Positions 1-51,260 of a DNA stretch of 64,000 bases are shown one piece after another. The stretch is from NCBI GenBank assembly GCA_030737835.1, contig JAUJYN010000016.1:186001-250000 (forward strand), written 5' to 3'. Each line of letters begins with the position of its first letter. Within the stretch, counting starts at the first letter, position 1. The stretch comes from Acorus gramineus. Lineage: Eukaryota > Streptophyta > Magnoliopsida > Acorales > Acoraceae. The notes under the pieces were generated by a model that did not search any database, was not told the origin of the DNA, and saw nothing but the letters and a program-made list of their open reading frames with translations. The translations under genes were made by a program, and so were the position numbers.

Positions 1-108
1 TTCGCTCGGTTGGCTGATTTGGTGGAGACACAGACGCGGATGTTGGCAGAGCAGGCTAGATAGATTCAGGAGCTGAGGGCCACTCGCGAGGCAGTTCCGC
101 AGGTCCCC

Positions 109-1278
109 ATGGTGGCAGATCCGCCTGTGGTACCCGATGTACCCCCAGTTCCAGTGGCGATTCCGGCGGTAGGAGTTCAGGGTCCCCTGCAGAGGGAGGA
201 GGAGCTAGAGGCGGCAGCGCGAGTTCAGCAGAGCGGCCTCAACGCCTTTCTGAAACTCCACCCTCCCGAGTTCCATGGGCAGACGGCAGATCCTCTTGCG
301 CCAGAGCGTTGGTTGAGGGAGGTGGATACGATCTTCGCGGCCATGCTTTGCACTGATCGTCAGCGAGTCCCCCTGGCCACCTTTATGCTGAAGGGTAACG
401 CCGCCGACTGGTGGGCTACCCGAGTGGTGGACATCCCAGAGGGAGTGGAGCAGCTTTCTTGGGCGGGTTTCTGGAGGCATTTTCTAGACGAGTATTTCCC
501 GTTCTCAACGCGCCAGATCGTGATGCGGGAGTTCGAGCAGTTGACGCAGGGCTCCATGTCGGTTGCTGACTACTCTACGCACTTCACGAGGCTCTCCAGA
601 TTTGCTCCGGCCTTGGTGATGGACGAGGACACGCGGTGCCGTCGATTCGAGCTCGGTCTCAGCAGCGCTATCTGGGTGCACGTCACCGCCCAGGCATTCT
701 CGAGGTTCTCGGACTTGGTGTCTCGAGCGAAGACGGTCGAGCGAGATCTCGGGATCATCGTGGGGTTTCCAACCCCTTCCGCAGATCAGGGTCCTTCCGG
801 GAGTCGGGACCAGGGGCAGCGCAAGAGGAAGAGGCCCCGCTTCGATCAGTCAGCGGCTGCCTCTCCTCCAGCAGATGCGGTGCCAGGGTGGGATCCAGCA
901 CCCATTGCGGCAGTGCCCATCCAGTCCATGCAGCCGGAGAGGCGACGCTGCTTCCATTGTCAGCGCATCGGGCATATCAGATACCATTGCCCTGATGCTG
1001 GCCGACCCCTAGTGCCACCTCAGCAGCCGCAGTTCTTACAGCAGCAGCTTCCGCGCCAGCAGCCAGTGCAGCCGGTGAGGCGTGCTCCTGTTCCTCAGCC
1101 GCGGTTGGTCCAGGGCAGAGTTGCAGCGCTTACGGTCGAGGAGGTGCAGCCTTCGGGTATCATGGTTCGAGGTATTATCTTGTGTTCCCAGCTCTCTAGT
1201 ATAAGGATAGGTGTGTGTGTAGTTGGTGGTTATTATGCAAGTGTGTGGGGTATCTGGATGAGTGTATATCAAGAGTGA
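109..1278 (+). CDS. gag ORF of the chromovirus fossil
   Basis: A 389-codon ORF with a typical plant gypsy gag. The retrotransposon gag domain spans roughly residues 45-205 (start LNAFLKLHPPEFHG, then PERWLREVD and the ADWW motif). A basic stretch QRKRKRPRF lies near residue 240, followed by a CCHC zinc knuckle CFHCQRIGHIRYHC near residue 282. A Q/P-rich linker follows. Gag forms the particle that packages element RNA. Homology to gag ends near base 1150 and the last 40 or so codons read into unrelated LTR-like sequence. The upstream bases are also gag-like, so this ATG need not be the original start. Confidence 0.8.
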   Translation: MVADPPVVPDVPPVPVAIPAVGVQGPLQREEELEAAARVQQSGLNAFLKLHPPEFHGQTADPLAPERWLREVDTIFAAMLCTDRQRVPLATFMLKGNAADWWATRVVDIPEGVEQLSWAGFWRHFLDEYFPFSTRQIVMREFEQLTQGSMSVADYSTHFTRLSRFAPALVMDEDTRCRRFELGLSSAIWVHVTAQAFSRFSDLVSRAKTVERDLGIIVGFPTPSADQGPSGSRDQGQRKRKRPRFDQSAAASPPADAVPGWDPAPIAAVPIQSMQPERRRCFHCQRIGHIRYHCPDAGRPLVPPQQPQFLQQQLPRQQPVQPVRRAPVPQPRLVQGRVAALTVEEVQPSGIMVRGIILCSQLSSIRIGVCVVGGYYASVWGIWMSVYQE

Positions 1279-2510: not shown

Positions 2511-2546
2511 TAAATGTTTTTGCATATTTTGGGGACAAAATTTCCT

Positions 2547-2559
2547 AAGGGGGGAAGAA
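2547..2559 (+). other. polypurine tract of the chromovirus
   Basis: The purine run AAGGGGGGAAGAA sits immediately before the TG that opens the 3' LTR at 2560. This is the usual position for the plus-strand primer of an LTR retrotransposon. Confidence 0.85.
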
Positions 2560-2819
2560 TGTTATATGTGTCACTTTTAACCTGCTGGTAACCGTTGGAG
2601 CGTTCTAGCAGTTTTCGTTTTTTTCGGTTTTCGATCGGTACCGCTAATTTTTGGACTGTTAGCTATCGTCCTGAGCTAGAGGACTCCGATTGGAAATCTA
2701 ACTGCATATTTGGTGTCCTGGTGCCATTTTAGGCCTCTCACGAAAATTTCGTCGAATTCCGGTAACGTTTCTGAAATTTCACAGTTTCGGGGCGTATCCG
2801 GGTATTTTAAGTCGCTCAC

Positions 2820-2827
2820 TATATATA
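2820..2827 (+). promoter_or_regulatory. TATA box of the Tekay-type LTR
   Basis: TATATATA follows a conserved stretch shared by the related LTRs. Equivalent boxes lie at 18052-18059 and 48083-48090 (plus strand) and at 32338-32345 and 33661-33668 (minus strand). It would place the start of the transcript, and hence of R, about 30 nt downstream. Confidence 0.65.
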
Positions 2828-2954
2828 GGTGGGATCTAATTTCGAAATCACTATTCATCATCCCTACCAAATGAGTTTTTCTCTCTCTCCTCTCTCTTTT
2901 TCTCCCATTTGAAGCCCTTAGACCCCTCAAAGCTTAAAACCTAAAGCATAGGAA

Positions 2955-2979
2955 GTGTAGATCGGGTCCCGATCTACAC
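2955..2979. repeat. 25-nt near-perfect palindrome in the LTR leader
   Basis: Two perfect 12-nt arms (left arm GTGTAGATCGGG) flank a single central T. The same palindrome occurs at 18186-18210, 32185-32209, 33507-33531 and 48217-48241, always downstream of the LTR TATA box. The divergent LTR at 24309-27401 lacks it. In RNA it would form a long stem, or allow two molecules to pair with each other. Confidence 0.85.
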
Positions 2980-3360
2980 CCCGGTGGTTTCAAATTCCCA
3001 TTCCGGCGAGTTTTGCCCCTCCGTCCCCCCTCTCTTCTCCTCTGTTTTGGCCCATTTCGGAGGTGGGAGTAGATCCGGGCGTTGGAAGCCCTTTGGGAGA
3101 GGTTTCGGTGCGCGGAGAGCATCCGGACTTCCCTTCTTCCCCTCGGTAAGCCACTTTTCCTCTCTTTTCTTGCATAGATGTATGCTAGGAGGGTGGATTT
3201 GAGGTTGGGTGGTGGTCAGCGGTGGTGGGTGGCCGTCGGAGGGCTGTGGGAGGTGGTCATAGTCCTTGGGGTGGTCGGAGGTGGGTGGTAGAGGAGCTCG
3301 GGCTGGCAGGCTGGCAGTCCCGGGCAGCAGGCAGCAGCACAGGCAGCTCAGGCGCAGCAG

Positions 3361-3790
3361 CTAGCAGGGGCGCGCGCGCGTGCGCGCAGGAGTGCGCGCG
3401 GGCGTGCGCACGGGTGGCGCTGGGCGCTGGGCGCTGGCGGGTGCAGTCGGGCGTGCAGTCGCGCGCGGGTGCGCGCGGAGTGGTCGCGCGGGTGCTGGCG
3501 CGAGCGGGGGTGTGCGCAGGAGTGCGCGCGAATGCGCGCGGTCGCGCGCGGGCGTGCGCGCGATCGTGCGCGCGCGCGGGCAGGGCACCTGGGCACTGTG
3601 CCTGGGTGCTGGGCAGGGCGCCTGGGCATGCGCCTGGGCGCGGTGCTGGGGACCAGTGCACGCGGTGCTGGGGCGTGCGTGCAGTGCGCACGGGGGCTCG
3701 CTGGGCTGGACGCGCGGTGCGCGCGGGGCGGGTGGCCGTGCGTGCGGTTGCCCGGTGGGTTCGGGAGTGAGTCGGGATGCTCGGATACGC
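3361..3790. repeat. GC-rich GCGCGC/GTGCGC low-complexity stretch in the LTR
   Basis: Degenerate alternating purine-pyrimidine repeats (GTGCGCGCGG, GCTGGGCGCT) fill the region between the first donor-like and first acceptor-like sites of the LTR. Equivalent stretches lie at 18590-19400, 25250-25720, 29190-29708 with 32613-33180, 31490-31860 and 48600-49390. They create long open frames on both strands that are not genes. Confidence 0.85.
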
Positions 3791-3903
3791 GTGCGTACGG
3801 GTCGTATGTACGCTTGTCCGAGTGTTGGGTATTTTTAGAGTATTTTTAATGTATTTTGGAGTATTTATGTAGTTTACTCACCGTATAAATGCCTGTCTTG
3901 CAG

Positions 3904-3939
3904 ATCTTGACGGACGGTCGCGCGACGACCCGAACTTCG
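3904..3939 (+). other. conserved 36-nt exon-like block in the LTR
   Basis: The block begins ATCTTGACGGACGGTCGCGC and is flanked by TGTCTTGCAG on the left and GTGAGTGGG on the right, i.e. close to consensus plant splice acceptor and donor sites. It is 36 nt long in all six LTRs of the window (others at 19535-19570, 25858-25893, 49521-49556 on plus; 29008-29043 and 31348-31383 on minus). The surrounding intron-like stretches vary far more. Confidence 0.7.
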
Positions 3940-3964
3940 GTGAGTGGGACAATCCAACCCAGTA

Positions 3965-4003
3965 GAGAGGCGTCATACGCATTTGGGCGTATACCGACCT
4001 CTC
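3965..4003 (+). other. conserved nested hairpin in the LTR
   Basis: The outer stem is GAGAGG/CCTCTC and the inner stem ATACGC/GCGTAT. In the divergent LTR (25919-25957) the outer stem becomes GGGAGG/CCTCCC, a compensatory change, and the inner stem keeps pairing through a G-U wobble. Other copies lie at 19596-19634, 49582-49620, 28944-28982 and 31284-31322. This supports a structured RNA. Confidence 0.7.
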
Positions 4004-4919
4004 CTGGGGCACCATGGATGTATATTAACCGGCAATAATATGTAATCCATGCTTGCTTGATTTAAATGTAGAATGCATGCTACCCTAGTCTTTGTATGTT
4101 AGGGACTTGCACCCATAGGATAGGTGTAAGAGCCATGCACCATGCCCCCTATTTTCATGCTAGGAAACCTCGGCCTATGCATGCGTCCTACTAGTTTATT
4201 TATTAAATTAAATGCTAGTGTATGTTAAATCGCATGCCTTAGATAATATTATAGGGAGGAGCCTTGCGAGGTCAACATTGAGACCCGTGTTAGGTACTCC
4301 GTGTTCCTTGTTTGGTTGTCGGGATGTCCTATATCGGGACCTCATGCTGCCCTCCCAAGGTTTCTAGTCCCATTAATATTATAAGTAATGTTATATAACT
4401 GGTATGATTATTAGCATATTTAGTGAATATTATAGGGGAGGGGCCTTGCGAGGACAGCGGTGAGACCCGGGTTAGGGTACTCCGTGTTCCTTGTTTGGTT
4501 GTCGGGGTATCCTATATCGGGAACTCACACCGCCCTCCCGAGTTCTTTCCCCCAATGATATTACAACCTTGCTTTTATTGTACGTGTTCCCCGCATCTTG
4601 GTTATGCGCCCTGGAGGAACTCTGAAGAGTTCATGGCATTAGAGTTGTAGAGATGTGTTGTCGGCGGATCCGAGTGGATCATATGCGTATGGATAGGCTG
4701 TTCTGTTTCCCTTCGTTGGATCCGGTAGAGACTGCCCCAGCGTTAGAAAGGCCGTCCCTTCCAAGGGTTCCCATCAGTAGGCGCCTCCTGATTTGGTTTC
4801 GGACTGGGCTGAAGTTGTGGGTGAAAACCAAGCGGCCTACGGAGTGGAGGAGAGACTATCGGTGGACCAAGGGTGACCAACAGCCTAGTCAGTCCCAAAA
4901 TCCTATGTCACCCGTGGTA

Positions 4920-4943
4920 GGGTGAGGGTGAGGGTGTAGTGGG
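4920..4943 (+). other. G-quadruplex-forming motif in the LTR
   Basis: Four GGG runs with short loops (GGGTGAGGGTGAGGGTG followed by TAGTGGG). The motif sits in a repeated unit after the phrase TCCTATGTCACC and recurs in every Tekay-type LTR of the window: plus strand near 20619, 20711, 26670, 26742, 26820 and 50575; as C-runs near 28025, 28112, 28195, 30265 and 30360. A quadruplex in vivo is inference. Confidence 0.6.
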
Positions 4944-5578
4944 TTGGCGATGAGCGACCCACCGGATTGTGGTTGGATGATTATTAGTCCCAATATCCTA
5001 TGTCACCCATTGAAGGGTGAGGGTGAGGGTGTGGTGGTTCGGCGATGTACGAACCACTGGATTATGTTGTTATGTCACTTAGAGGATGGATAAATAATGG
5101 AATTGTGGTAAATATTGTCTGTGATGCATGGGTTGTGCTGTTCACTGAGCGTGTGGCTCACCCCTCGCATTTGTTTTTCCCCAGTGGTCATTGAGCCTGA
5201 GCTAGAGCCGGAGCAGCAGTTGGAGCTTTCCAAGGGATTCCTTCAGTAGTGGAGCAGCGCCACGTTCCGCGAGTGCCAGAGGTTATCAGCATCCCTTCTT
5301 GACTGTATGTATTTGATTTCCGTGCTTGGAACGTGTTTGTACATGTTCAGTTGTATTTGTGTATATTGGCTCTCACAGGACAGATGATTGAGTATCGAGT
5401 CTGTAGAATGTTTATTTACAGATTTCAGTCTTTTGCTTCCGCATTTGGTGTATATATCATGTCAGCCCCTTTGTTGCATGTGTGTCATTCTAGTTGTTTG
5501 TGTATGATATATTGTGTAGATTCTGATATTATATATACACTTGCCGCGTCCCGGGGACGGCCGCCCTGGGGCGTGACA

Positions 5579-13517: not shown

Positions 13518-13530
13518 TGTAGAATTTTTT

Positions 13531-13598
13531 TTAGGGTTTCGTGTTTTTTTTTTTTTTTTTTGGTGAAATGAAATGTTTTGGTTTAGTAGCGTATTATA
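13531..13598 (-). promoter_or_regulatory. native promoter/5' UTR signals of GeBP-like copy 1
   Basis: On the minus strand a TATA-like TATAATA (13592-13598) lies about 75 nt before the ATG. It is followed by an A-rich run of 18 or so (about 13543-13561) and a telo-box AAACCCTAA (13531-13539), an element common in the 5' regions of plant housekeeping genes. The A-run length differs between the two gene copies. Confidence 0.5.
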
Positions 13599-17788: not shown

Positions 17789-20700
17789 TGTTATATATGT
17801 GTCCCTTTTAGCCTGCTGGTAACCGTTGGAGCGTTCTGGCAGTTTTTCGTTTTTTCGGTTTTCGATCGGAACCGCTAATTTTTGGACTGTTAGCTATCGT
17901 CCGGAGTTAGAGGACTCCGATTGGAAATCTAACTGCATATTTGGTGTCCTGGTGCCATTTTAGGCTTCTCACGAAAATTGCATCGAATTCCAGCAACGTT
18001 TTCAAAATTTCACAGTTCCGGGGCGTATCCGGGTATTTTAAGTGACTTGTGTATATAAATGAAATCTAATATTTCATTAGGCACTATTCATCATCCCTAC
18101 CAAAGCTTCCTCTCTCTCCCCTCTCTCCTTTTCTCCCATTTGAGCCCCTTAGACCCCTCAAACCCAAAAACCTAAAGCATAGGAAGTGTAGATCGGGTCC
18201 CGATCTACACCCCGGTGCTTTCAAATCCGGATTCTGGCGAGTTTTGCCCCTCCATCTCCCCTCTCTTCATCCCTGATTTGGGCCATTTCGAAGGCCAAGA
18301 GAGATCCGGGCGTTGGAAGCCTTTTGGGAGAGGTTTCAGTGCGCGGAGAGCAACCGGACTTCCCTTCCTCCCCTTGGTAAGCCTCTTTTTCCTCTCTTTT
18401 CTTGTATAGATGTATGTTAGGAGGTGGGTATGAGGTTGGGAGGCGGTCGGCGGCGGTGGGTGGCCGTCGGAGGGCTGTGGGTGGTGGTCGGAGGCCTTGG
18501 GGTGGCCGGTGGTGGGTGGTAGAGGAGCTCGGGCAGGGAGGCTTGCAGTCCCGGGCAGCAGGCAGCACAGGCAGGCGCAGCAGGAGAGCAGCGGCAGGGC
18601 GCGCGCGTGCGTGCGCGCGGACGTGCACGCGGGCGTGCGCTCGGGTTGGCGCTGGGCATGCTGGGTGCTGGGCGTGCGGGGCGCGCAGGGTAGGCTGGCA
18701 GGGCTAGTTCGGGTAGGATGGCTGGGCTGTGTGCGCTGGCAGGCCGGGCAGGCAGGCTGGGCGCGCAGGCGTGCTGGGCAGGAGGTGCTCGGGCATCAAG
18801 CGGGCAGTGCCCAGGCGTGCAGGCGAGCGGTGCTCGGGCCACTCGGCGATGCGCGCAGGCAGGCAGCGCGGGCAGCAGCGCGGGCAGGCTGGTAGGCGCG
18901 CTGGGCGCGTGCTGCCAGGCGCGCTGGGTGAGGGTCCCGGGTGCTGGGCGCTGAGCGCTGGGAGCTGGTCGCGGATGCCGGGTGTGCTGGGCGAGGGTGC
19001 TGAGCGCTGGGCGCAGGGGAGCTGGGCACAGTGCACCGCAGAGGTGCATGCGCGCGGGGTGCTGGGCAGAGGCACTGGCGTGCGCGTGGTGAGGAGAGCA
19101 GTGGGTGCGAGCGGGTGGTGCGCGCGGGGCGAGGCTGGTGGCGCGTGCGGAGTGCGCGCGGAGCGGGGCTGGTGGTGCGCGCGGGGTGCGCGAGGGGCGA
19201 GGCGCTGGGCGCGCGGGGCGTGCGGGGTGCGTGCGGGCTGCTGCGGCGGGGCGCAGTGGGCGCGCGGCGCACCGGGTGGCTCGGCTGCGGGTCCAGGCGT
19301 GCGGGCAGGGGCCCGACGGTGCGCCTGGGTGCGCGGGCTGAGGCGCGGCGGCGCATCCGGGGCGGGTGGCCTTTCGGGTGGTTGCCATGGGTTCGGGAGT
19401 GAGTCGGAGTGCTCGGGCTAACGTGCGTACGGGCCGTATGTACGTTTGCCCGAGTGTTGGGTTCTTTTGGGTACTTTGTGAGTATTTTGATGTAATTGTG
19501 TATTTAACTCACCGTATAAATGTCTGTCTTGCAGATCTTGACGGGCGGTCGCGCGACGACCCGATCTCCGGTGAGTGGGACAATCCAACCCAGTAGAGAG
19601 GCGTTATACGCATTTAGGCGTATGCCGACCTCTCCTGGGGCACCATGGATTATATTAACCTGTTGTAATGTATATTTCATGCGAGCATGATTTAAATGTA
19701 GAATGCATGCTACCCTAGACTTTGCATGTTAGAGACTTGCACCCTTAGGATATGTGTATGAGCCATGCACCATGTCCCCTGCTCTCATGCTAGGAAGCCT
19801 TGGCCTATGCATGTGTCCTACTAGTTTATTTATTTAATTAAATGCTAGTGTATGATAAACTGCATGCCTTAGATGATATTATAGGGAGGAGCCTTGCGAG
19901 GTCAACACTGAGACCCGGGTTAGGGTACTCCGTGTTCCTTGTTTGGTTGTCGGGGTGTCCTGTATCGGGAACTCATGCTGTCCTCCCAAGGTTTCTTGTC
20001 CCAATAATATTGTAAGAAATGTTATACCAAATTATATGATTATTAGCATATTTAGTGAATATTATAGGGGAGGGGCCTCGCGAGGACAGCGGTGAGACCC
20101 GGGCTATGGTACTCCGTGTTCCTTGTTTGGTTGTCGGGGTGTCCTATATCGGGAACTCACGCTGCCCTCCCAAGTTTCTTTCCCCCAATGATATTCCACC
20201 CTTGCTAATTATTGTGTATGTTCCCCGCATATTGGTTATGCGCCTTGGAGGAATTCTGAGGAATTCAGGACATTAGAGTTGTAGAGATGCGTTGTCGGCG
20301 GATCCGAGTGGATCATATGCGTATGGATAGGCTGTTCTGTCCCCTTCGTTGGATCCGGTAGAGGCTGCCCCAGCGTTAGAAAGGCCGTCCCTTCCAAGGG
20401 TTCCCATCAGTAGGCGCCTCCCGATATTTGTGACGGACTGTGCTGAAGTTGTGGGTGAGGGCTCCCATCAGTAGGCGCCTCCCGATATTTGTGACGGACT
20501 GTGCTGAAGTTGTGGGTGATAGCCAAGCGGCCTACGGGGTGGAGGAGAGACTATCGGTGGACCAAGGGTGACCAACAGCCTAGTCAGTCCCAAAATCCTA
20601 TGTCACCCGTGGTAGGGTGAGGGTGAGGGTGTAGTGGGTTGGCGATGAGCGACCCACTGGAGTTGTGATTGGATGATTATCAGTCCCAAAATCCTATGTC

Positions 20701-21308
20701 ACCCATTGAAGGGTGAGGGTGAGGGTGTAGTGGGTTGGCGATTGAGCGACCCACTAGTTTGAGTAGTTGTTACCATTTTGTGGTTGTAAATAAGAGATTG
20801 TGGATTATTAAGATCTGAATTGTGGTCAATATTGTCTGTGATGCATGGGTTGTGCCGTTCACTGAGCGTGTGGCTCACCCCTCGCATATGTTTTTCCCCA
20901 GTTGCCACTGAGCCTGAGTTGGAGCCGGAGCAGTAGTAGGAGCTTTCCGAGGGATTCCTTCAGTAGCGGAGCAGCGCCACGTTCCGCGAGTGCCAGAGGC
21001 TATCAGCATCCCTTCTTGACTGTATGTATTTTATTTCCGTGCTTGGCACGCGTTTGTATATGTTCAGTTGTATTTGTGTATATTGGCTCTCACAGAACAG
21101 ATGATTGAGTATCGAGTCTGTAGTATGTTTTATTTACAGATTCAGTCTTTTGCTTCCGCATTTGGTGTATATATCATGTCAGCCCTTGTTGTCTGTGTTG
21201 TCGTTTATCTGTTTGGTTATGATATATATATTATTGACCTTCTGTGTAGATTCTGATATTTTATATACACTTACCGCGTCTCGGGGACAGCCGCCCTGGG
21301 GCGTGACA
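17789..21308 (+). mobile_element. solo Tekay-type LTR in copia copy 1
   Basis: A TG...CA LTR of 3520 bp flanked by the perfect 5-bp target duplication GTTGT (17784-17788 and 21309-21313), with no internal region. It formed by LTR-LTR recombination after insertion into the copia element. Parts: TATA 18052-18059; palindrome 18186-18210; donor-like site after 18376; GC-rich stretch 18590-19400; 36-nt block 19535-19570; hairpin 19596-19634; second acceptor-like site ending 20901. The identical site is occupied in copy 2, so the insertion is older than the duplication. Confidence 0.93.
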
Positions 21309-24291: not shown

Positions 24292-24308
24292 TAACTGAGG
24301 AGGGATAG

Positions 24309-27300
24309 TGTCGTGTCTGTGTCATTGGGAGCGCTCTGTTTGAAGATTTGGGTACATAAATTTTTTCCTAAGTTATGTATTCCTGATTTGGTTTTTGGAT
24401 TTGATTTTGTTAAAATCCAAGATGAAGAGGTTTAATTATGATTTTATTATGAGATGTCTAGTTTTGAGTTAGCTTTCGCACAGAAGTGGAATTAGATCAA
24501 CTGGATTCTTGTAGTAAAAGTTATGGGTATTTTTCCAAGTATACCCTGGGGATGGAAATTCTGGCAGCAGCCATGCTCGATGTTTAGCTCTAATTTCGGA
24601 TTAGCTAGAGAGATTATCTGATCTTCCCATGAGCATGAAAGTTGTAGATAATCTTCTTAGCTTTCCATCGGTCTTGGAATCAAGCAATTCGGAGCTGTAT
24701 CGGGGAAGTTATGGCTGTTCCAGTGAAGCTTGCGCAGAATTTCTAGTCGGAGGGCGACTTAGTAAATTCTCCTTAAGATATTTGTGATAAATATCTTTCT
24801 CCTCTCTCTTCCCCTCCCAATGTGCACGTCGACCTCTGCTGGGTCTCATTTTCTCTCCTTCAAAGCCCCCACCAAGTGTTTGATCAAATGTTTCAATGAG
24901 AAGAAGAGAAGGAGGTGGTGGAGGAAGAAGAGCTTGTGTGCATGTGTTGTTGTTGTTTGTTCCTCTCTATCTCAAGCTCCCTTTCTCATGATTTCTTCCC
25001 CCCCTGTTTGCTGCCATGAGGAGGCTGAGGAGAGGCTGAGGAGAGGTGGTGGTGGTGGTGGTTCCGGCGGCGGCGTTTCGGTGCGCGAAGGGCCCCGAAC
25101 CTCCCCCTTTCTTTTCCCTCCCAAGGTGAGCTCCTCCCCTCCTTTTTCTTGGTTTTCTTGGCCTAAGGGGTGTTGGGAAGGTCATGCATGTTGGGTAGGT
25201 GTGTTAGGGAGTGTGTGAGGGGTTGGGGATGGTTAAAAAGAGGTTAGAATGGCTTGGGCGCGAGCTGGGCGTCGTCTGCGCGCGTGCGCGCGCAGGCGCG
25301 CGCGCAGGCGGGCGCTGGCAAGCGCGCTGATGGGCGCGGGCGCGTGCGCGCGGGTGCGCGGGAGCACGCAGGAGTGCGCGCGGGTGCAGGCGCGAGCGGG
25401 GGTGCGCGCGGGAGTACGCGCGGGTGCGCGCGGGTGCGCCCGCGGGCAGGGCACCTGGGCACTGCGCCTGGGTGCCCGCGGGACAGGGCGCCTGGGCGCG
25501 GAGCTGGGGACCAGTGCGTGCGCATGCTGGGGCGTGCGCGCAGTGCGCGCTGGGCTGGACGCGCGATGCGCGCGGGCGCGCGCGAGCGTGCGCGTGCGTG
25601 CGGCAGTGCGTCGGGGCGCGCGGGCAGGCGCGCGGCAGTGCGCCGATGGTGCCGACGTGCGTGCGTGCGTGCGCATTCGTGCGTGCGCGTGCGGGTGGCC
25701 GTGCGTATGGCTGCCCGGGGGTTCGGGAATGAGTTGGGGTGCTCAGACTCGCGTGCGTACGGGCCGTATGTACGTTGGCCCAAGTATTGTGTATTTTTAG
25801 TGTATTTTTGGGTTATTTGTGTATTTTACTCACCGAGTTGATTACCCTGTCTTGCAGATCTTGACGGACGGTCGCGCGACGACCCGGTTACCGGTGAGTG
25901 GGACAATCCAACCCAGTTGGGAGGCGCTATATGCACTTGGGCGTATACCGTCCTCCCCTGGGGCACCATAGATTAATATTAACCTGTTTAATATGTAATC
26001 CATGCAGCATGATTGATATGTAGTATGCATGCTACCCTAGACTGAGTATGTTAGGGACTTGCACCCTTAGGTTGTGTAAGAGCCATGCATCTTGTCACCT
26101 TGTTATCATGCTAGGAAAGCCTCGGCCTTTGTATGCGTCCTATTAGTTTAATTTGTTAAATTAAATGCAACTTGTAATATTATAGCATGCCTTAGGGAAT
26201 ATTAAGGGGCCTTGCGAGGTCAACATTGAGACCCGGGCTAGGGTGCTCCGTGTTCCTTGTTTGGTTGTCGGGATGTCCTATATCGGGACCTCTTGGTGCC
26301 CTCCCAAGGTTTCTTTTCCCGTCTATATTAATGCATGTTCCCCGCATCTTGGTTATGCGCCCTAGAGGAATTCTGATGAATTCAAGACACTAGAGTTGTA
26401 GAGATGTGTTGTCAGCGGATCCGAGTGGATCATATGCGTGTGGGTAGGCTGTTTCTCTTCCCTTCGTTGGATCCATGTAGGGACTCCTCAGCGTTAGACA
26501 GGCTATCTTGACAGAGGGCTCCCATCAGTAGGCACCTCCTGATCTTGGACTCGGACTGTGCTGAATGTGGGAGTAGACCAGGCAAGCTACGGTGTGGAGG
26601 AGAGGCTATCGGTGGACCAAGGGTGATTAACAGCCTAGTCAGTCCCAATATCCTATGTCACCTATTGAGGGGTGAGGGTGAGGGTGTATGGATGTGTATG
26701 GATGATTATCAGTCCCAATATCCTATGTCACCTATTGAGGGGTGAGGGTGAGGGTGTACGGATGTGTATGGATGTTTATCAGGCTAATAAGTCCCAATAT
26801 CCTATGTCACCTATTGAGGGGTGAGGGTGAGGGTGTAGTGGGTTGGCGATAGCGACCCACTGGCCTGTATAGCTGTTGCCATTTTGTGGCTTTTAATAAT
26901 GAGATTGTGGAATAATAATATATGGTGGTTAATATATATATTGTGATGCATGGGTTGTGCTGTTCACTGAGCGTGTGGCTCACCCCTCGCATAATATTTT
27001 CTCCAGTGTCATCTGAGTCGGATCTGGAGAAAGAGCTCCCCGAGAGACTTCATCAGTAGCGGAGTAGCGCCACGTCCCGCGAGTATCAGAGGCTATCAGC
27101 ATCCCTTTTTGCTTGTATGTATTATATTCCGTGCTTGGGCACGCGTTTGTATTGTATTTGGATGTCTTTGTATATATTGGCTCTCACAGGACAGTTGATT
27201 ATGTATCGAGTCTGTAATATGTTTTGGATTACAGATTCAGTCTTTTAGCTTCCGCTATTGGTGTATATATCATGTCAGCCCTGCTTCTGTTGTCTTTGTT

Positions 27301-27401
27301 GTCATTTTAGTCGTTGTGTGAGTATATTATTGAACTCCTATTTACTGATATCATATATACACTTGCCGCGTCCCGGGATCGGCCGGCCCTGGGGCGTGAC
27401 A
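24309..27401 (+). mobile_element. solo LTR, divergent Tekay-type subfamily
   Basis: A TG...CA LTR of 3093 bp with perfect target duplication GATAG (24304-24308 and 27402-27406) and no internal region. The first 900 or so bases (to the donor-like site after 25125) do not resemble the other LTRs and lack the palindrome. From the GC-rich stretch (25250-25720) on, the order is the same: 36-nt block 25858-25893, hairpin 25919-25957, single CCTTGTTTGG module (about 26205-26320), three G-rich units (26640-26850), second acceptor-like site ending 27006, and the same GGGGCGTGACA end. Confidence 0.92.
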
Positions 27402-27458: not shown

Positions 27459-30400
27459 TGTCACGCCCCGGGCGTCCCCGGTACGCGGCAAGTGTATATA
27501 AAATATCAGAATCTACACAGGAGGTCAATAATATCATAAACAAGCAGCCAGAATGACACACGGACGACAAAAGCAGGGCTGACATGATATATACACCAAA
27601 TGCAGAAGCTAAATACTGAATCTGTAATCAAAACACACTACAGACTCCATACATAATCACATGTCCTGTGAGAGCCAATATACATACAAAGACATCCAAA
27701 TACAACACAAACACGTGCCCAAGCACGGAAAATAATACATACAGGCACAAGGGATGCTGATAGCCTCTGCAACTCGCGGGACGTGGCGCTACTCCGCTAC
27801 TGATGAAATCCCTCGGGGAGCTCCTCCTCCAGATCCGACTCAGATGACACTGTAGAAAGATATTATGCGAGGGGTGAGCCACACACTCAGTGAACGGCAC
27901 AACCCATGCATCACAGACAATATTGACCACAACCAGATAATCCTTATCATCCACAATCTCATTACCATAGCCACAATTAACAACAATTCCTCAAACTAGT
28001 GGGTCGCTACCGCCCACCCACTACACCCTCACCCTCACCCTCAATGGGTGACCAAGGATATTGGGACTGATCAACACAAAACCAGCGGGTCGCTACCACC
28101 AACCCGCTACACCCTCACCCTCACCCTCAATGGGTGACATAGGATATTGGGACTTACAATCCAGTGGGTCGTCACATCGCCGGCCCACCATACCCTCACC
28201 CTCACCCTCACCCTCAACAGGTGACCTAGGCTCTTGGGACTGACTAGGCTGTTGGTCACCCTTGGTCCACCGATAGTCTCTCCTCACTCCGTAGGTCGTT
28301 TGGCCACTCCCATGTTCAGCACAGTCCTTCTACCAAATCAGGAGGCGCCTACTACTGGGAGCCCCTGCACGGGACAACCTGTCTAACGCTGAGGTAGTCT
28401 CTACACGGATCCAACGAAGGGAAACAGAACAGCCTATCCATCGCATATGATCCACTCGGATCCGCAGACAACACATCATAACAACACTAATGTTCTGAAT
28501 TCCTCAGAACCCACCAAGGCGCATAACTACGATGCGGGGAACATGCATAAGGTTATAACAAGGGTGGAATATCATTGGGGGAAAGAAACTCGGGAGGGCA
28601 GCGTGAGTTCCCGTTATAGGACACCCCGACAACCAAACAAGGAACACGGTGTACCCTAACCCGGGTCTCACCGCTGTCCTCGCAAGGCCCCTCCCCTATA
28701 ATATTCACTAAAGCATGCAATTAACATTTACTAGCATTTAATTTAATAAATAAACTAGTAGGGCACATGCATCGGTCGGGCTTCCTAACATGGAACCAGG
28801 GGACATGCTGCATGGCTCATACACATATCCTAAGGGTGCAAGTCCCTAACATGCAAAGTCTAGGGTAACATGCATTCTACAATTAAATCATGCTCGCATG
28901 ATATACATATTACACATGCCAATATCCATCCATGGTGCCCCAGGAGAGGTCGGTATACGCCCAAGTGCGTATAACACCTCTCTACTGGGTTGGATTGTCC
29001 CACTCACCGAAGTCCGGGTCGTCGCGCGACCGTCCGTCTAGATCTGCAAGACAGACATTCAATATGGTGAGAACAATGCATAAATACACAAAAATACATC
29101 TAAAATACCCAACACTCGGACAAACGTACATACGGCCCGTACGCACGCGTATCCGAGCATCCCGACTCACTCCCGAGCCCACCGGGCAACCGCACGCACG
29201 GCCACCCGCCTCGGGCGCACCGCCGAGCCCCCGGCCCGCGCGCCCGGACAGCCTGCCGAGCATCTGCCCGCAAGCCCTAGACACACTGCACGCCCGGGCG
29301 CACGCACGCGCACGCCCATGCGCACCGCGCGTCCGGCCCTGGGTGCACCCGCACGCACCGCGCCCCCGCGCAGCACCCGCACGCACACCCCGCCTGCACT
29401 GCGCCCCAGCGCAACGCCCAGCACTCCCTGCCGCACGCCCGAGTGCCCTGCGCCCCACGCGCAGCACCCGCGCGCGCCCCGCGCACACCCCGCGCACACC
29501 ACGCGAGCACACCGCACGCCCCGCGCGCCCAGCGCCTCGCCCCGCGCGCACCGCCAGCTCCGCCCCCGCGCGCACCCCGCGCGCACCGCCAGCTCCGCCC
29601 CGCGCGCACCCTGCACGACGCCCCGCAGCGGTGCCCAGCGCCCAGCGCCTCGCACCCTCGGCCACACCCGGTACCCGCGACCCAGCGCCCAGCGCTCAGC
29701 GCCCAGCACCCGGTGTCACGCCCCAGGGCGGCCGTCCCCGGGACGCGGCAAGTGTATATATAATATCAGAATCTACACAGGAGGTCAATAATATATCATA
29801 CACAACAACTAGAATGACACACATGCAACAAAGGGGCTGACATGATATATACACCAAATGCGGAAGCAAAAGACTGAATCTTTAAATAAACATTCTACAG
29901 ACTCGATACTCAATCATATGTCCTGTGAGAGCCAATATACACAAATACAACTGAACATATACAAACACGTGCCAAGCACGGAAATCAAATACATACAGTC
30001 AAGAAGGGATGCTGATAACCTCTGGTACTCGCGGAACGTGGCGCTGCTCCGCTACTGAAGAAATCCCTCGGAAAGCTCCAACTGCTGCTCCGGCTCCAGC
30101 TCAGGCTCAGTGGCAACTGGGGAAAAACATATGCGAGGGGTGAGCCACACGCTCAGTGAACAGCACAACCCATGCATCACAGACAATATTTACCAATTCC
30201 ATTATTTATCCAGCCTCTAAGACATAACAACATAATCCAGTGGTTCGTACTCCGCCGAACCACCACACCCTCACCCTCACCCATCAATGGGTGACATAGG
30301 CTATTGGGACTGATAATCATCCATTCACAATCCAGTAGGTCGCTCATCGCCAACCCACTACACCCTCACCCTCACCCTACCACGGGTGACATAGGATTTT

Positions 30401-33400
30401 GGGACTGACTAGGCTGTTGGTCACCCTTAGTCCACCGGTAGTCTCTCCTCCACTCCGTAGGCCGCTTGGTCTCCACCCACAACTTCAGCACAGTCCGTCA
30501 CAAATATCGGGAGGCGCCTACTGATGTGGGTCCTCCGAAGGACGGCCTTTCTAACGCTGGGGCAGTCTCTACCGGATCCAACGAAGAGAACAGAACAGCC
30601 TATCCATACGCATATGATCCACTCGGATCAGCCGACAACACATCTCTACAACTCAAATGTCATGAACTCTTCAGAGTTCCTCCAGGTGCATAACCATGAT
30701 GCGGGGAAATAAGTACAAGGTTGTAATATTATTGGGGGAAAGAACTCGGGAGGGCGGCGTGAATTCCCGATATAGGATACCCCGACAACCAAACAAGGAA
30801 CACGGAGTACCCTAACCCGAGTCTCACCGCTGTCCTCGCAAGGCCCCTCCCCTATAATATTCACTAACATGCTAATAATTATACCAATCATACAACATAA
30901 CATGTAATATTATTGGGACTAGAAACCTTGGGAGGGCAGCCTGAGGTCCCGATACAGGACATCCCGACAACCAAACAAGGAACACGGAGTACCCTAACAC
31001 GGGTCTCAATGTTGACCTCGCAAGGCTCCTCCCTATAATATTATCTAAGGCATGCGATTTAACATACACTAGCATTTAATTTAATAAATAAACTAGTAGG
31101 ACGCATGCATAGGCCGAGGTTTCCTAGCATGAAAACAGGGGGACATGGTGCATGGCTCTCACACCTATCCTATGGGTGCAAGTCCCTAACATAAAAGCCT
31201 AGGGTAGCATGCATTTTGTATTTAAAATCATGCTCACATGCAATACATATTACTACAGGTTAATATAATCCACGGTTCCCCAGGAGAGGTCGGTATACGC
31301 CCAAATGCGTATAACGCCTCTCTACTGGGTTGGATTGTCCCACTCACCGGTATCTGGGTCGTCGCGCGATCGTCCTTCCAGATCTGCAAGACAGACATTC
31401 AATATGGTGAGTAAACAAAACATAAATACTCTAAATACCCAAACATACAAAACCCACAACTAAACACCTAACACTCGGGCAAACGTGCATACGACCCGCG
31501 CGCACGCTAGCCCGAGCACTCCGGCTACCACCCGCACGGCCACCCGCCCTCGGATGCGCCGCCGCGCCTCAGCCCGCGCGCCCCGACGCACTGCCGCACG
31601 CACGCGCAAGCTCGCGCGCGCCCGCGCGCACCGCGCGTCCAGCCCAGCGCGCCCCCGCGCGCACTGCACGCACGCCCCAGCACGCGCGCACACTGGTCCC
31701 CAGCACCGCGCGCACTGGTCCCCAGCACTGCGCCCAGGCGCATGCCCAGGCGCCCAGCCCGCGCGCGCGCACGCCCGCTCGCACGCGCGCGCGCCCCTGC
31801 CAGCTGCTGCGCCTGTGCTGCCTGTGCTGCCTGCCTGCTGCCTGGGGCTGCCAGCCTGCCAGCCTGAGCACCTCCACCACCACTCCTCCGGCCACCAATG
31901 GCCTCCGACCACCTCCACAGCCCTCCGACGACCACCCACCGCCGCCGACCACCTCCCAACCTCAAATCCACCCTCCTAACATACATCTACACAAGAAAAG
32001 AGGGGAAAAGAGGCTTACCAAGGGGAGGAAGGGAAGTCCGGTTGCTCTCCGCGCACCGAAACCACTCCCCAAGGGCTTCCAATGCCCGGATCTACTCCCA
32101 CCTCCAAGACAGCCCAAAACAGAGGAGAAGAGAGGGGGGACGGAGGGGCAAATCTCGCCGGAATTCGGATTTGAAAGCACCGGAGTGTAGATCGGGACCC
32201 GATCTACACTTCCTATGCTTTGGGTTTTAAGCTTTGAGGGGTCTAGGGGGCTCAAAAGTGAGAAAAGGAGAGAGGGGAGAGAGAAAATGAAATTGGTAGG
32301 GATGATGAATAGTGTCACTCAAAAATTAGATTTCCTTTATATAGCAAGCGACTTAAAATACCCGGATACGCCCCGGAACTGTGAAATTTCAGGAACGTTA
32401 CCGGAATTCGATGAAATTTTTGTGAGAGGCCTAAAATGGCACCAGGACACCAAATATGCAGTTAGATTTCCAATCGGAGTCCTCTAACTCAGGACGATAG
32501 CTAACAGTCCAAAAATTAGCGGTTCCGATCGAAAACCGAAAAAAAACAAAAAACTGCCAGAATGCTCCAACGGTTACCAGCAGGTTAAAAGTGACACATA
32601 TATAACACCCGGGACCCTCACCCAGCGTCCACACGCACGCCCGCGCAACACGCGCCTAGCGCGCCTGGCAGCACGCGCCCAACGCGCCTGCCAGCCTGCC
32701 CGCGTTGCCTGCCTGCGCGCGTCGCCGAGTGGCCCGAGCACCGCTCGCCTGCACGCCCGGGGCACTGCCCGCCTGATGCCCGAGCGCCCCTGCCCTGCTC
32801 GCCTGCGCGCCCAGCCAACCAACCCGGCCTGCCAGCGCGCACAGCCACTGCCCGCAGCCAGCCTGCTCCGCACACCTCCCCCTGCACCCCCCGAGCGCAC
32901 GCCCGCGCGCGCACCCGCGCGCACGCGCTCGCGCGCCCAGCAAACTGGTGCACCTGCTCCCAGCCTACCCGAGCTAGTCCTGCCAGCCTGCCCAGCGCGC
33001 ACGCCCAGCCCTGCTGGCCTCCAGCGCCAGCTGAGCTCCCGCACGCCCAGCCCTGCTAGCCCCCAGCACCGCCCGAGCGCACGCACGCGTGCGCACGCCC
33101 GCGCCAACAACTGCGCCTGCTGCCCTGCGCTGCTGCCCTGCCCGAGACAGCAGCCAGCTAGCCCGAGCTGCAAGCCTGCCAGCCCGAGCTCCTCTTCCAC
33201 CCACCTCCAACCACCACCACAGCCTCCGACCACCTCCCACAACCCCCCGACCGCCACCTACCGCCGCCAACCTCCACCCAACCCCATTTCCACCCTCCTA
33301 GCATACATCTAGGCAAGAAAGAGAGGAAAAAGAGGCTTACCAAGGGGAGGAAAGGAAATCCGGTTGCTCTCCGCGCACCGAAACCTCTCCCAAAAGGTTT

Positions 33401-33930
33401 CCAACGCCCGGATCTACCTCCACCACCGAGATGGCTCAAATCAGGGACGAAGAGAGGGTGGACGGACGGCCAAAACTTGCCAGAATTGGGATTTGAAACC
33501 ACCGGGGTGTAGATCGGGACCCGATCTACACTTCCTAGGTTTTAACTTTTAAGCTTTGAGGGGTCTAAGGGCCTCAAATGGAAGAAAAACGGAGGAGAGG
33601 AGAGAGAGGGCTCAAGGTAGGGGATGATGAATAGTAACTCAGGATATTTTTAGCTTTCACTTATATAGCGGGCGACTTAAAATACCCGGATACGCCCCGG
33701 AACTGCGAAATTTCGGGAACGTTACCGGAATTCAACGAAATTTTCGTGAGAGGCTTAAAATGGCACCAGGACACCAAATATGCAGTTAGATTTCCAATCG
33801 GAGTCCTCTAACTCAGGACGATAGCTAACAATCCAAAAATTAGCGGTACCGATCGAAAACCGAAAAAAATGAAAAACTGCCAGAACGCTCTAACGGTTAC
33901 CAGCAGGCTAAAAGTGACACATATATAACA
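27459..33930 (-). mobile_element. solo Tekay-type LTR, minus strand, interrupted
   Basis: It opens TGTCACGCCCC (the reverse complement of the LTR end) and closes ...ATATATAACA. Perfect target duplication ACTGC lies at 27454-27458 and 33931-33935. Without the inserted LTR at 29714-32607 and its duplication it is about 3.57 kb, a normal solo LTR. Parts: second acceptor-like site at 27850; hairpin 28944-28982; 36-nt block 29008-29043; GC-rich stretch in two pieces (29190-29708, 32613-33180); donor-like site at 33340; palindrome 33507-33531; TATA 33661-33668. Confidence 0.92.
29714..32607 (-). mobile_element. solo Tekay-type LTR nested in another LTR
   Basis: A 2894-bp TG...CA LTR on the minus strand with perfect target duplication CCCGG (29709-29713 and 32608-32612). 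It lies inside the GC-rich part of the LTR at 27459-33930. Parts: second acceptor-like site at 30117; two CCTTGTTTGG modules (about 30740-31035); hairpin 31284-31322; 36-nt block 31348-31383; short GC-rich stretch 31490-31860; donor-like site at 32016; palindrome 32185-32209; TATA 32338-32345. Confidence 0.93.
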
Positions 33931-47777: not shown

Positions 47778-47819
47778 CGTTGAAAAATATTTTCTATTTC
47801 GTAGGATTGTATGCGTTGT

Positions 47820-50800
47820 TGTTATATATGTGTCATTTTTAGCCTGCTGATAACCGTTGGAGCGCTCTGGCAGTTTTTAGTTTTTTCGGTTTTCGATCGG
47901 AACCGCTAATTTTTGGACTGTTAGCTATCGTCCGGAGTTAGAGGACTCCGATTGGAAATCTAACTGCATATTTGGTGTCCTGGTGCCATTTTAGGCCTCT
48001 CACGAAAATTTCATCGATTTCCGCCAACGTTTCCAAAATTTCACAGTTCCGGGGCGTATCCGGGTATTTTAAGTGACTTGTGTATATAAATGAAATCTAA
48101 TATTTCATTAGGCACTATTCATCATCCCTACCAAAGCTTCCCCTCTCTCCTCTTCTCTCTTTTCTCCCATTTGAGGCCCTTAGACCCCTCAAACCCAAAA
48201 ACCTAAAGCATAGGAAGTGTAGATCGGGTCCCGATCTACACCCCGGTGCTTTCAAATCCGGATTCCGGCGAGATTTGCCCCTCCGTCTCCCCTCTCTTCT
48301 TCCCTGATTTGGGCCATTTCGGAGGCCAAGAGAGATCCGGGCGTTGGAAGCCTTTTTGGAGAGGTTCCAGTGCGCGGAGAGCAACCGGACTTCCCTTCCT
48401 CCCCTTGGTAAGCCTCTTTTCCTCTCTTTTCTTGTATAGATGTATGTTAGGAGGTGGGTATGAGGTTGGGAGGCGGTCGGCGGCGGTGGGTGGCCGTCGG
48501 AGGGCTGTGGGTGGTGGTCGGAGGCCTTGGGGTGGCCGGAGGTGGGTGGTAGGGGAGCTCGGGCTGGCAGGCTGGCAGCCCCGGGCAGCAGGCAGCACAG
48601 GCAGGCGCAGCAGGCGGGCAGCGGCAGGGCGCGCGCGCGCGTGCGCGTGGACGTGCACGCGGGCGTGCGCTCGGGTTGGCGCTGGGCGTGCTCGGTGCTC
48701 GGCGTACGGGGCGCGCAGGGTAGGCTGGCAGGGCTAGCTCGGGTAGGATGGCTGTGGGCTGTGCGTGCTGGCAGGCCGGGCAGGCAGGCTAGGCGCGCAG
48801 GCGTGCTGGGCAGGAAGTGCTCGGGCATCAGGCGAGCAGTGCCAGGCGTGCAGGCGGTGCTCGGGCCACTCGGCGATGCGCGCAGGCAGGGAGCGCGGGC
48901 AGCAGCGCGGGCAGGCTGGTAGGCGCGCTGGGCACGTGCTGCCAGGAGCGCTGGGCGCGTGCTGCGCAGGCGTGCGCGTGGGCGCTGGGTGAGGGTCCCG
49001 GGTGCTGGGCGCTGAGCGCTGGGAGCTGGTCGCGGATGTCGGGTGTGCTGGGCGAGGGTGTTGAGCGCTGGGCGCAGGGGCGCTGGGCACCGTAGAGGTG
49101 CATGCGCGCGGGGTGCTGGGCAGAGGCACTGGCGTGCGCGTGGTGAGGAGTGCAGTGGGTGCGAGCGGGTGGTGCGCGCGGGGCAAGGCTGGTGGCGCGC
49201 GGGGCGTGTGGGGTGCGCGCGGGCTGCTGCGGCGGGGCGCAGTGGGCGCGCGACGCACCGGGTGGCTCGGCTGCAGGTCCAGGCGTGCGGGTAGGGGCCC
49301 GACGGTGCGCCTGGGTGCGCGGGCTGAGGCGCGGCGGCGCATCCGGGGCGGGTGGCCGTGCGGGTGGTTGCCATGGGTTCGGGAGTGAGTCGGAGTGCTC
49401 GGGCTAACGTGCGTACGGGCCGTATGTACGTTTGCCCGAGTGTTGGGTTCTTTTGGGTACTTTGTGAGTATTTTGATGTAATTGTGTATTTAACTCACCG
49501 TATAAATGTCTGTCTTGCAGATCTTGACGGGCGGTCGCGCGACGACCCGATCTCCGGTGAGTGGGACAATCCAACCCAGTAGAGAGGCGTTATACGCATT
49601 TGGGCGTATACCGACCTCTCCTGGGGCACCATGGATTATATTAACCTGTTGTAATGTATATCTCATGCGAGCATGATTTAAATGTAGAATGCATGCTACC
49701 TTAGGATATATGTATGAGCCATGCACCATGTCCCATGTTCTCATGCTAGGAAGCCTTGGCCTATGCATGTGTCCTACTAGTTTATTTATTTAATTAAATG
49801 CTAGTGTATGATAAACTGCATGCCTTAGATGATATTATAGGGAGGAGCCTTGCGAGGTCAACACTGAGACCCGGGTTAGGGTACTCCGTGTTCCTTGTTT
49901 GGTTGTCGGGGTGTCCTGTATCGGGAACTCATGCTGCCCTCCCAAGGTTTCTTGTCCCAATAATATTGTAAGAAATGTTATACCAAATTATATGATTATT
50001 AGCATATTTAGTGAATATTATAGGGGAGGGGCCTCGCGAGGACAGCGGTGAGACCCGGGCTAGGGTACTCCGTGTTCCTTGTTTGGTTGTCGGGGTGTCC
50101 TATATCGGGAACTCACGCTGCCCTCCCAAGTTTCTTTCCCCCAATGATATTCCACCCTTGCTAATTATTGTGTATGTTCCCCGCATATTGGTTATGCGCC
50201 TTGGAGGAATTCTGAGGAATTCAGGACATTAGAGTTGTAGAGATGCATTGTCGGCGGATCCGAGTGGATCATATGCGTATGGATAGGCTGTTCTGTCCCC
50301 TTCGTTGGATCCGGTAGAGGCTGCCCCAGCGTTAGAAAGGCCGTCCCTTCCAAGGGTTCCCATCAGTAGGCGCCTCCCGATATTTGTGACGGACTGTGCT
50401 GAAGTTGTGGGTGAGGGCTCCCATCAGTAGGCGCCTCCCGATATTTGTGACGGACTGTGCTGAAGTTGTGGGTGATAGCCAAGCGGCCTACGGAGTGGAG
50501 GAGAGACTACCGGTGGACTAAGGGTGACCAACAGCCTAGTCAGTCCCAAAATCCTATGTCACCGTGGTAGGGTGAGGGTGAGGGTGTAGTGGGTTGGCGA
50601 TGAGCGACCCACTGGAGTTGTGATTGGATGATTATCAGTCCCAAAATCCTATGTCACCCATTGAAGGGTGAGGGTGAGGGTGTAGTGGGTTGGCGATTGA
50701 GCGACCCACTAGTTTGAGTAGTTGTTACCATTTTGTGGTTGTCTAATAAGAGATTGTGGATTATTAAGATCTGAATTGTGATCAATATTGTCTGTGATGC

Positions 50801-51260
50801 ATGGGTTGTGCCGTTCACTGAGCGTGTGGCTCACCCCTCGCATATGTTTTTCCCCAGTTGCCACTGAGCCTGAGTTGGAGCCGGAGCAGTAGTAGGAGCT
50901 TTCCGAGGGATTCCTTCAGTAGCGGAGCAGCGCTACGTCCGCGAGTGCCAGAGGCTATCAGCATCCCTTCTTGACTGTATGTATTTTATTTCCGTGCTTG
51001 GCACGCGTTTGTATGTATTCAGTTGTATTGGTGTATATTGGCTCTCACAGGACAGATGATTGAGTATCGAGTCTGTAGTATGATTATTTACAGATTCAGT
51101 CTTTTGCTTCCGCATTTGGTGTATATATCATGTCAGCCCTTTTGTTGCCTGTGTGTCATTCTGATTGTTTGTGTATGATATATTATTGACCTCCTGTGTA
51201 GATTCTGATATTATATATACACTTGCCGCGTCTCGGGGACAGCCGCCCTGGGGCGTGACA
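47820..51260 (+). mobile_element. solo Tekay-type LTR in copia copy 2
   Basis: A 3441-bp TG...CA LTR with the perfect target duplication GTTGT (47815-47819 and 51261-51265), at the same site as in copy 1. Parts: TATA 48083-48090; palindrome 48217-48241; donor-like site after 48407; GC-rich stretch 48600-49390; 36-nt block 49521-49556; hairpin 49582-49620; paired CCTTGTTTGG modules (about 49850-50150); second acceptor-like site ending 50857. It differs from copy 1 by scattered bases and by length changes in the GC-rich stretch. Confidence 0.93.

Follow-up and report, generated by a model that had tools for sequence, protein, structure and literature searches.

The long terminal repeats (LTRs) of a Gag-only Ty3/gypsy retrotransposon family in Acorus gramineus contain an intron that was removed from some element RNA, as genomic footprints show that an exon 1 was spliced to a 36-nucleotide (nt) exon 2 and that the spliced RNA was copied back into DNA. 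The family was studied in a window of 64,000 nt (contig JAUJYN010000016.1, 186,001-250,000), which holds six of its LTRs, and in the 398.6 Mb of genome sequence (137 contigs) that were searched. The LTR, about 3 kb long in this short, Tekay-like family, appears to be a small multi-exon unit. In the reading favored here, to which an even chance is given, the LTR would provide a leader in its 5' copy and exons for a Gag tail in its 3' copy, while an RNA that keeps intron 2 would serve as the genome.

Footprints of splicing in genomic DNA

The layout is described for the copy W1, an LTR on the forward strand (2560..5578) that starts with TGTTATATGTGTCAC, ends with GGGGCGTGACA and forms the 3' LTR of a short element. 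All of its parts lie on this strand. Exon 1 (2850..3145) is an AUG-poor leader of 296 nt, whose 5' end probably lies ~25 nt past TATATATA near 2819-2826. It is followed by the G-rich intron 1 (3146..3903, 758 nt), which extends from the donor GTAAGC at 3146 to a CTTGCAG ending at 3903, and by exon 2 (3904..3939, 36 nt, phase 1-1). The putative intron 2 (3940..5184, 1,245 nt) extends from GTGAGT (GTGAGTGGG at 3940) to a CCCCAG ending at 5184, and the coding part of the candidate exon 3 reaches to a common TAG (5185..5249).

The order of donor 1, acceptor CTTGCAG, 36 nt, GTGAGTGGG and second acceptor is present in all six window LTRs. The block has the same length in each; intron 1 measures 635-1,158 nt where it is uninterrupted (five copies), and intron 2 measures 1,113-1,331 nt in all six. 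ACAATCC is found downstream of GTGAGTGGG in the six LTR copies and is absent at a seventh GTGAGTGGG (53459-53467, reverse strand). This layout, with GTAAGC or, in W3, GTGAGC as the first donor, had been proposed for all six LTRs by an earlier sequence-only reading of the window and was borne out in every one. Since the donor, introns and acceptors are all in cis within each LTR, a trans-spliced leader (SL RNA) is not needed.

In the genome, 22 copies were found in which exon 1 is joined precisely to exon 2, compared to none for reversed controls. Fourteen of them match the exact string of exon 1 and exon 2, with an exon 1 that stops precisely at the common donor. A relaxed scan, which allowed 1-30 bases between CCCCTY and ATCTNGACGGRCGG, gave 28 rows at 25 places, comprising the 14 exact joins, six TTGG/ATCT joins, two CCAAG/ATCT joins and three ordinary unspliced acceptors. 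No imprecise join of exon 1 to exon 2 was found in this 1-30-nt scan, cuts further upstream being outside its reach, and every one of the 22 joins begins at the first base of exon 2. The TTGG and CCAAG ends resemble donors in unspliced copies of other subfamilies, namely ...TTTGG/GTAAGC of L039 and L050, ...TAGG/GTAAGC of L041 and ...CCCAAG/GTGAGC of W3 and L034. The surroundings were read for 21 of the 22 joins; the matched string of the 22nd (C55:164112) is identical to that at C55:157985. In 20 of these 21 intron-1-less copies exon 2 is followed by GTGAG, which L098 has lost, and exon 2 is 36 nt long except for 37 nt in L113.

Two complete elements lack intron 1 in both LTRs. One (C78:712807-720062) is flanked by the target-site duplication (TSD) TTATG and has LTR exon stretches that are identical at 284 of 286 positions, and the other (C2:7692637-7700072) has the TSD ACCAT and 279 of 291 identical positions; both TSDs are 5 bp long. 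The absence from both LTRs is explained by reverse transcription of one RNA that was spliced in its 5' LTR, and the exact joins together with these two elements show that spliced RNA was reverse-transcribed. Deletion or recombination at the DNA level could also remove an intron, as LTRs are generally prone to recombination, but this origin is hardly credible here. All 22 joins share the first base of exon 2, 14 also share the common donor, the scan returned no imprecise join, and two separate deletions do not account for an intron missing from both LTRs of two elements, whereas one spliced RNA does.

The 22 copies correspond to at most 20 insertions, or 19 if the C55 pair is one element, and it is insertions rather than independent splicing events that are counted. 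Because the join patterns were exact, the counts of intron 1 loss are lower bounds. Intron 1 appears to have been lost repeatedly, and no large intron-less lineage was seen. Of the LTR-encoded spliced leader or small exon suggested by the sequence-only reading, the junction of 3145 to 3904 is thus documented by the 22 joins and the two complete TSD-flanked elements, whereas the junction of 3939 to 5185 has left no genomic footprint.

Conservation of the splice borders

The inner 14-mer of the block has 5,264 matches in the genome compared to none for its reversed control, and the pattern CTTGCAG-N25..50-GTGAGTGGGACAATCC has 6,369 matches compared to none for its control. With such counts against zero, the layout is not due to chance. 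Border conservation was assessed in 30 loci that were picked solely by the inner 14-mer and therefore blind to the borders, using TTGCAG as the acceptor string and GTGAGT, GTAAGT or GTGAGC as donor strings. The acceptor CAG is kept in all 30 and the donor GTGAGT in 29, the exception being L054, which has lost its donor. The mean share of minority bases in these loci is 0.37 at -40..-12, 0.0125 at -11..-4 and 0 at -3..-1 before the block. At donor 2 it is 0 at +1..+6 and is also low, at 0.027, in the intronic positions +7..+22. The idea of a small exon had been made to depend on AG/GT borders that hold genome-wide, and in these loci they do. Donor 1 was found in 47 of 64 copies (GTAAGC in 44, GTGAGC in two, GTAAGT in one); in the other 17 the anchor failed or the site was outside the available stretch, and no conservation figure is given for this donor. 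The set of 64 copies omits L001, which is the same place as W1, and L026, whose orientation is unclear.

The length of the block is kept less strictly. Among the first 100 listed of the 6,369 matches, it is 36 nt in 86, 37 nt in ten and 35 nt in four. The claim of exactly 36 nt therefore stands for the six window copies and fails genome-wide, and 36 nt as an absolute rule is excluded by the 14 listed copies of other length. In its nucleotides the block is no better conserved than the flanks, W1 and W5 being identical at 28 of 36 positions in exon 2 and at 1159 of 1227 in intron 2. The features that are kept are the borders, for the most part the length, and a codon-like pattern, not a nucleotide identity of exon 2 above that of its surroundings.

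A gene-like layout could also stem from a host-gene fragment that an ancestral LTR took up together with its introns and has since carried along passively. A source gene is possible in that the peptide predicted from exons 2 and 3 has no match in Pfam up to E 1. Nevertheless, this origin is quite unlikely, as the borders are invariant among diverged copies with very unlike 5' ends, and as splicing occurs in element RNA, which does not fit a passive passenger.

A coding frame across exons 2 and 3

When exons 2 and 3 are joined, the frame LDGRSRDDP.. is open to the common TAG in 49 of 56 copies, which are those of the 64 with all three needed features (seven are without a located exon 3 and one is without donor 2). 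An open frame tells little by itself, since many copies are open in frame 0 of the joined exons as well. The coding length of exon 3 is 53, 59, 65 or 71 nt, all of one phase, in 54 of 57 copies, the others being W2, W6 and L054. Codons 1, 5 and 9 of exon 2 (CTN, TCN and CCN) vary at the third position, with four bases in codons 1 and 9 and three in codon 5. Among the types of change in exon 2 that occur in at least three copies, nine are synonymous and four are not, compared to 4.0 synonymous changes expected (P 0.0044). A synonymous excess is also present in the class with a 53-nt exon 3 (P 0.02, or 0.05 without singletons), and none was seen in other frames, in exon 1 or in the 60 nt past the stop, the last control comprising 28 of the 30 copies of the 65-nt class. 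These P values, and those given below, ignore relatedness and multiple testing. The pattern supports, without proving, that exons 2 and 3 encode the end of an acidic peptide of ~30 residues with a common stop. The block itself looks like coding sequence rather than only a leader, a step beyond the sequence-only reading, which had just noted a multiple of three.

It is highly improbable that exons 1, 2 and 3 encode a small protein of their own with a non-AUG start in exon 1. The frame of exon 1 that leads into exon 2 is open for ~25 codons in many copies, but the length from an exon 1 landmark to the donor shifts by single bases (25 nt in 39 of 44 copies, 24 nt in two, 26 nt in two and 20 nt in one), and other subfamilies end in TTGG or CCAAG. 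Exon 1 is also without a synonymous excess, and the stretch examined is free of ATG in 22 of the 44 copies. Owing to these length shifts, the ATG poverty and the missing synonymous excess, exon 1 was excluded as a coding start. Just inside intron 1, at 3161-3190 of the window and at equivalent positions, TTCTTGCATAGATGTATGCTAGGAGG resembles an acceptor, stands directly 5' of an ATG and is similar in several LTR copies. This ATG may be the first one of unspliced RNA where exon 1 is free of ATG.

Element identity and the gag end

L061 has an internal region of 2.8 kb with a gag frame (Pfam Retrotrans_gag, E 1.9e-16) and only short remnants resembling reverse transcriptase (RT) and a chromodomain; L062 is similar. 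At the pol end, two matches to Pfam Chromo (E 0.0039 and 0.023) fell short of the curated cut-off, a 98-residue RT-like remnant had no Pfam match, and the protease and RT motifs scanned for were found in none of 30 gag-end loci in the sampled stretch. With a gag frame and no intact pol between its LTRs, the family belongs to the Gag-only, non-autonomous (TR-GAG) type. The clade name Tekay (Del) is the label of the sequence-only reading, and no intact pol was met. The LTR ends are TGTTATAT...GTGACA, of the TG...CA type, and TTGGTATCAGAGC, which we take to be a tRNA-Met primer-site match, is located 4 nt past the LTR end in 20 of the 30 stretches with a located gag start, L061 being one of the 20. 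These ends, the primer site and the short TSDs TTATG and ACCAT identify an LTR retrotransposon.

The gag codons run to ...ATGGTTCGAG directly before GTAATG and end there in phase 1, as exon 2 requires. This candidate gag-end donor is present in 29 of the 30 gag-end loci, and GTAATG is invariant in all of the 49 strings listed out of 88 (0 of 294 cells differ). In these 49 strings, the 22 nt before GTAATG contain no indels and differ in 47 of 1,078 cells, and GTAATG is followed by a spacing of 18 nt in seven, 19 nt in 20 and 20 nt in 22, so the gag frame is no longer kept there. At the other end of gag, TTTTCTTAGG precedes the ATG by 9-10 nt in all 30 stretches with a located gag start, from 32 examined, among which L061 overlaps with L063 and L062 with L073.

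The phase match at the gag end and the acceptor-like site before the gag ATG are the basis for a proposed Gag mRNA. In this model, the exon 1 leader would be joined to gag at the acceptor-like site, 9-10 nt upstream of the ATG, and the gag-end donor (phase 1) would be spliced across the degenerate pol remnant into the 3' LTR, either to exon 2 (phase 1-1) or to exon 3 (phase 1). The resulting RNA would be subgenomic and would lead from exon 1 through gag to exons 2 and 3 of the 3' LTR, whose peptide (DLDGRSRDDP...) would form the C-terminal tail of Gag. The genomic RNA would be the one that keeps intron 2, which may be needed for mobilisation, and where such RNA is spliced from exon 1 to exon 2, its reverse transcription would give LTRs without intron 1. 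That the LTR has two uses, providing a spliced AUG-poor leader from the 5' copy and, by way of the gag-end donor, coding exons of the Gag tail from the 3' copy, is put forward tentatively and with somewhat less than even confidence. Since both LTRs are rewritten from a single RNA during reverse transcription, coding selection acting on the 3' LTR would also leave its mark on the 5' LTR.

Alternatively, exons 1-3 may only be the intron-containing 5' leader of genomic or gag RNA, in which splicing boosts expression and removes upstream AUGs, mostly those of intron 2. Exons 2 and 3 would then be untranslated, and the codon-like pattern would be due to chance or to a splicing-enhancer effect. We regard this explanation as possible, though doubtful. 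The demonstrated splicing of intron 1 and the often open frame 0 of the joined exons are consistent with it, and so are the nearly ATG-free exons and the ATG-rich intron 2 of W1, with one ATG in exon 1, none in exon 2 or in the exon 3 coding part, and 37 in intron 2 compared to 22.5 predicted from composition. However, intron 1 of W1 is not AUG-rich (9 ATGs compared to 7.8 predicted), and seven ATGs are present downstream of the stop within the LTR, so that splicing would not give an AUG-free leader. A pure leader also does not account for third-position variation in one frame only, in exon 2 and one exon 3 class, for the common stop and the single phase over the exon 3 classes, or for a gag-end donor that is invariant and matches in phase.

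Several observations weigh against a Gag tail encoded by the 3' LTR. Seven of the 56 copies miss the common stop, with premature stops in W2 and W6, a stop at the junction in L055, a stop one codon early in L035, and an exon 2 of 34 nt in L027 and of 37 nt in L042 and L043. The 37-nt exon 2 seen in ten of the 100 listed copies shifts the frame, and some of the length steps of exon 3 are 6 nt within a GAGCNG repeat, where slippage could mimic frame keeping. If all changes in exon 2 are counted, 12 are synonymous and 15 are not, compared to 8.1 synonymous ones expected (P 0.08), so the excess needs rare changes to be omitted, and the 65-nt class of exon 3, the largest, shows no synonymous excess (P 0.50 and 0.26). 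At the gag end, the 49 strings were chosen by matching a downstream anchor and are one set of relatives, W1 has GTATTA instead of GTAATG, and gag is fully open in only eight of the 30 sampled loci. Splice-site scores, based on position frequencies, rank the donors 5th and 7th of 253 and the acceptors 15th and 7th of 176; owing to these middling ranks, splice-site strength was dropped as proof of splicing. Finally, the genome searches found no join of gag to exon 2, no exact join of exon 2 to exon 3, and no join of exon 1 to exon 3 when one mismatch was allowed. The missing gag-exon 2 join is weak counter-evidence, because such an RNA would be without the polypurine tract and U3. Two matches to the exon 2-exon 3 join with one mismatch (L118 and L119) were rejected due to surroundings unlike the LTR.

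Intron 2 and possible reasons for its retention

Intron 1 is absent in 22 copies and intron 2 in none found. From the borders and the frame alone, we infer that intron 2 is spliced. If it is needed for mobilisation, as the Gag-tail model supposes, only losses of intron 1 would be seen. Its retention may be due to a signal within it that acts in packaging or retention, or to an internal poly(A) site, or the intron may simply be unspliced.

A very stable hairpin is located right after donor 2 (3958..4008 in W1, forward strand), with a free energy of -28.4 kcal/mol and a z of -4.98. One G-C/A-U exchange between subfamilies and several G-U changes were observed, and a third subfamily (L108, L111, L112) pairs the hairpin in a shifted register. 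Covariation was evaluated in 22 rows chosen from 64 distinct sequences, 20 of which are faithful and distinct, excluding W1b as a repeat of W1 and L035v for one wrong base outside the counted pairs. Two of 19 pairs are changed on both sides. Neither this count nor the number of pair types is above that of shuffles (374 of 500 and 500 of 500 reach them), whereas the values for paired cells, for cells with changes in both partners and for the covariation score are reached by 0 of 500 shuffles. The hairpin is stable and mostly conserved, and its covariation is weak. A scan of window positions 2500-5700 against Rfam gave no match up to E 1.

Modules that are also present in LTR intron 2 were noticed between the gag end and the RT-like remnant (L061 ~1560-2330, window ~1560-1905). 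Positions 1789-1905 of the window match two pieces of W1 intron 2 at 85-86 %, and the other shared modules were recognized by eye.

Further features of the window

The gag remnant of the element to which W1 belongs occupies 1..1171 (forward strand) and ends at the gag-end donor position, with GTATTA at 1172. Near the end of the W1 LTR, a possible extra short intron of 74 nt (5305-5378, GTATGT...CTCACAG) was noticed by eye.

W2 (17794..21308, forward strand) has donor 1 at 18377, exon 2 at 19535-19570 and exon 3 from 20902. W6 (47825..51260, forward strand) has donor 1 at 48408, exon 2 at 49521-49556 and exon 3 from 50858, and both share a premature TAGTAG in exon 3. The two look like one duplicated copy, and the window therefore probably holds five independent LTR copies. 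The segments ~6,000-21,308 and ~36,000-51,260, about 30 kb apart, have a similar composition profile and resemble one duplication.

W3 (24301..27401, forward strand) has the donor GTGAGC at 25126, exon 2 at 25858-25893, exon 3 from 27007 and a different exon 1; 24301 is the start of the slice analysed, not a mapped LTR start. Across U3 and exon 1, W3 is no more than 46 % alike to 2560-3145 of W1, and from exon 2 onward the two are clearly related. The 5' end of the LTR looks exchangeable between copies, as judged from 24301-25126 of W3 and W1. On the reverse strand, W4 (27459..33930; donor 1 at 33340, exon 2 at 29043-29008, exon 3 from 27849) is interrupted by W5 (29714..32607; donor 1 at 32018, exon 2 at 31383-31348, exon 3 from 30116), which is nested within intron 1 of W4. 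Two tandem degraded stretches at ~10,100-11,300 resemble, by eye, the remains of a plant RNase H-type retroelement protein.

Relation to known elements

Plant LTR elements are described as generally without introns, the short GAG of EVADE (EVD) and the Ogre intron being notable exceptions (PMC12786077, PMC6317226). Like the Acorus family, these are plant LTR retrotransposons that are spliced, and their splicing is described as regulated and as altering the proteins made. Their introns are internal, in the protease region, unlike those of the Acorus family, which lie in the LTR. For barley BARE1, a Gag-only RNA is described that is made by splicing near the gag end and is separate from the copied RNA, and its authors could not amplify DNA copies of the spliced RNA from barley DNA (PMC3735527). 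The predicted gag-end donor of the Acorus family corresponds to that of BARE1 and EVD, being close behind the gag domain as in BARE1 (PMC3735527). In contrast to what is described for BARE1, the Acorus exons are part of the LTR, and a spliced RNA has left DNA copies. A study on the Ty3/gypsy element Cer1 of Caenorhabditis elegans and the CERV protein describes a spliced mRNA in which gag-derived exons are joined to a far downstream exon (PMC10309623); in the Acorus family, the downstream exons of the predicted tail would be inside the LTR. A set of expressed sunflower elements is without Tekay (PMC7730604). Among the matches listed for open-access literature on introns and splicing in LTRs, on spliced RNA for Gag and on copies without introns, none of the titles or abstract openings suggested introns inside Tekay LTRs.

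Among retroviruses, human T-cell leukemia virus 1 (HTLV-1), foamy viruses and mouse mammary tumor virus (MMTV), with its sag gene, have a splice donor in the R region of the LTR or a gene in the LTR. The Acorus LTR would likewise supply a spliced leader or, from its 3' copy, coding sequence, although in a different lineage, and we know of no retrovirus with a whole 36-nt cassette exon between two introns inside the LTR. TR-GAG elements are short and non-autonomous, with LTRs, a gag frame and no working pol. The Acorus family differs from these by LTRs of ~3 kb with introns and by the persistence of RT-like and chromodomain-like remnants.

The introns of this family are wholly inside an LTR that exists in thousands of copies, whereas those of the known plant cases are described in the papers cited above as internal. 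Intron-less LTRs record splicing followed by transposition, so that splicing of the copied RNA becomes countable from the genome alone, and the asymmetry between the losses of intron 1 and intron 2 makes it possible to address which parts are indispensable to the copied RNA. Should a Gag tail be encoded by the 3' LTR, LTR evolution in this Acorus family would be under protein-level selection.

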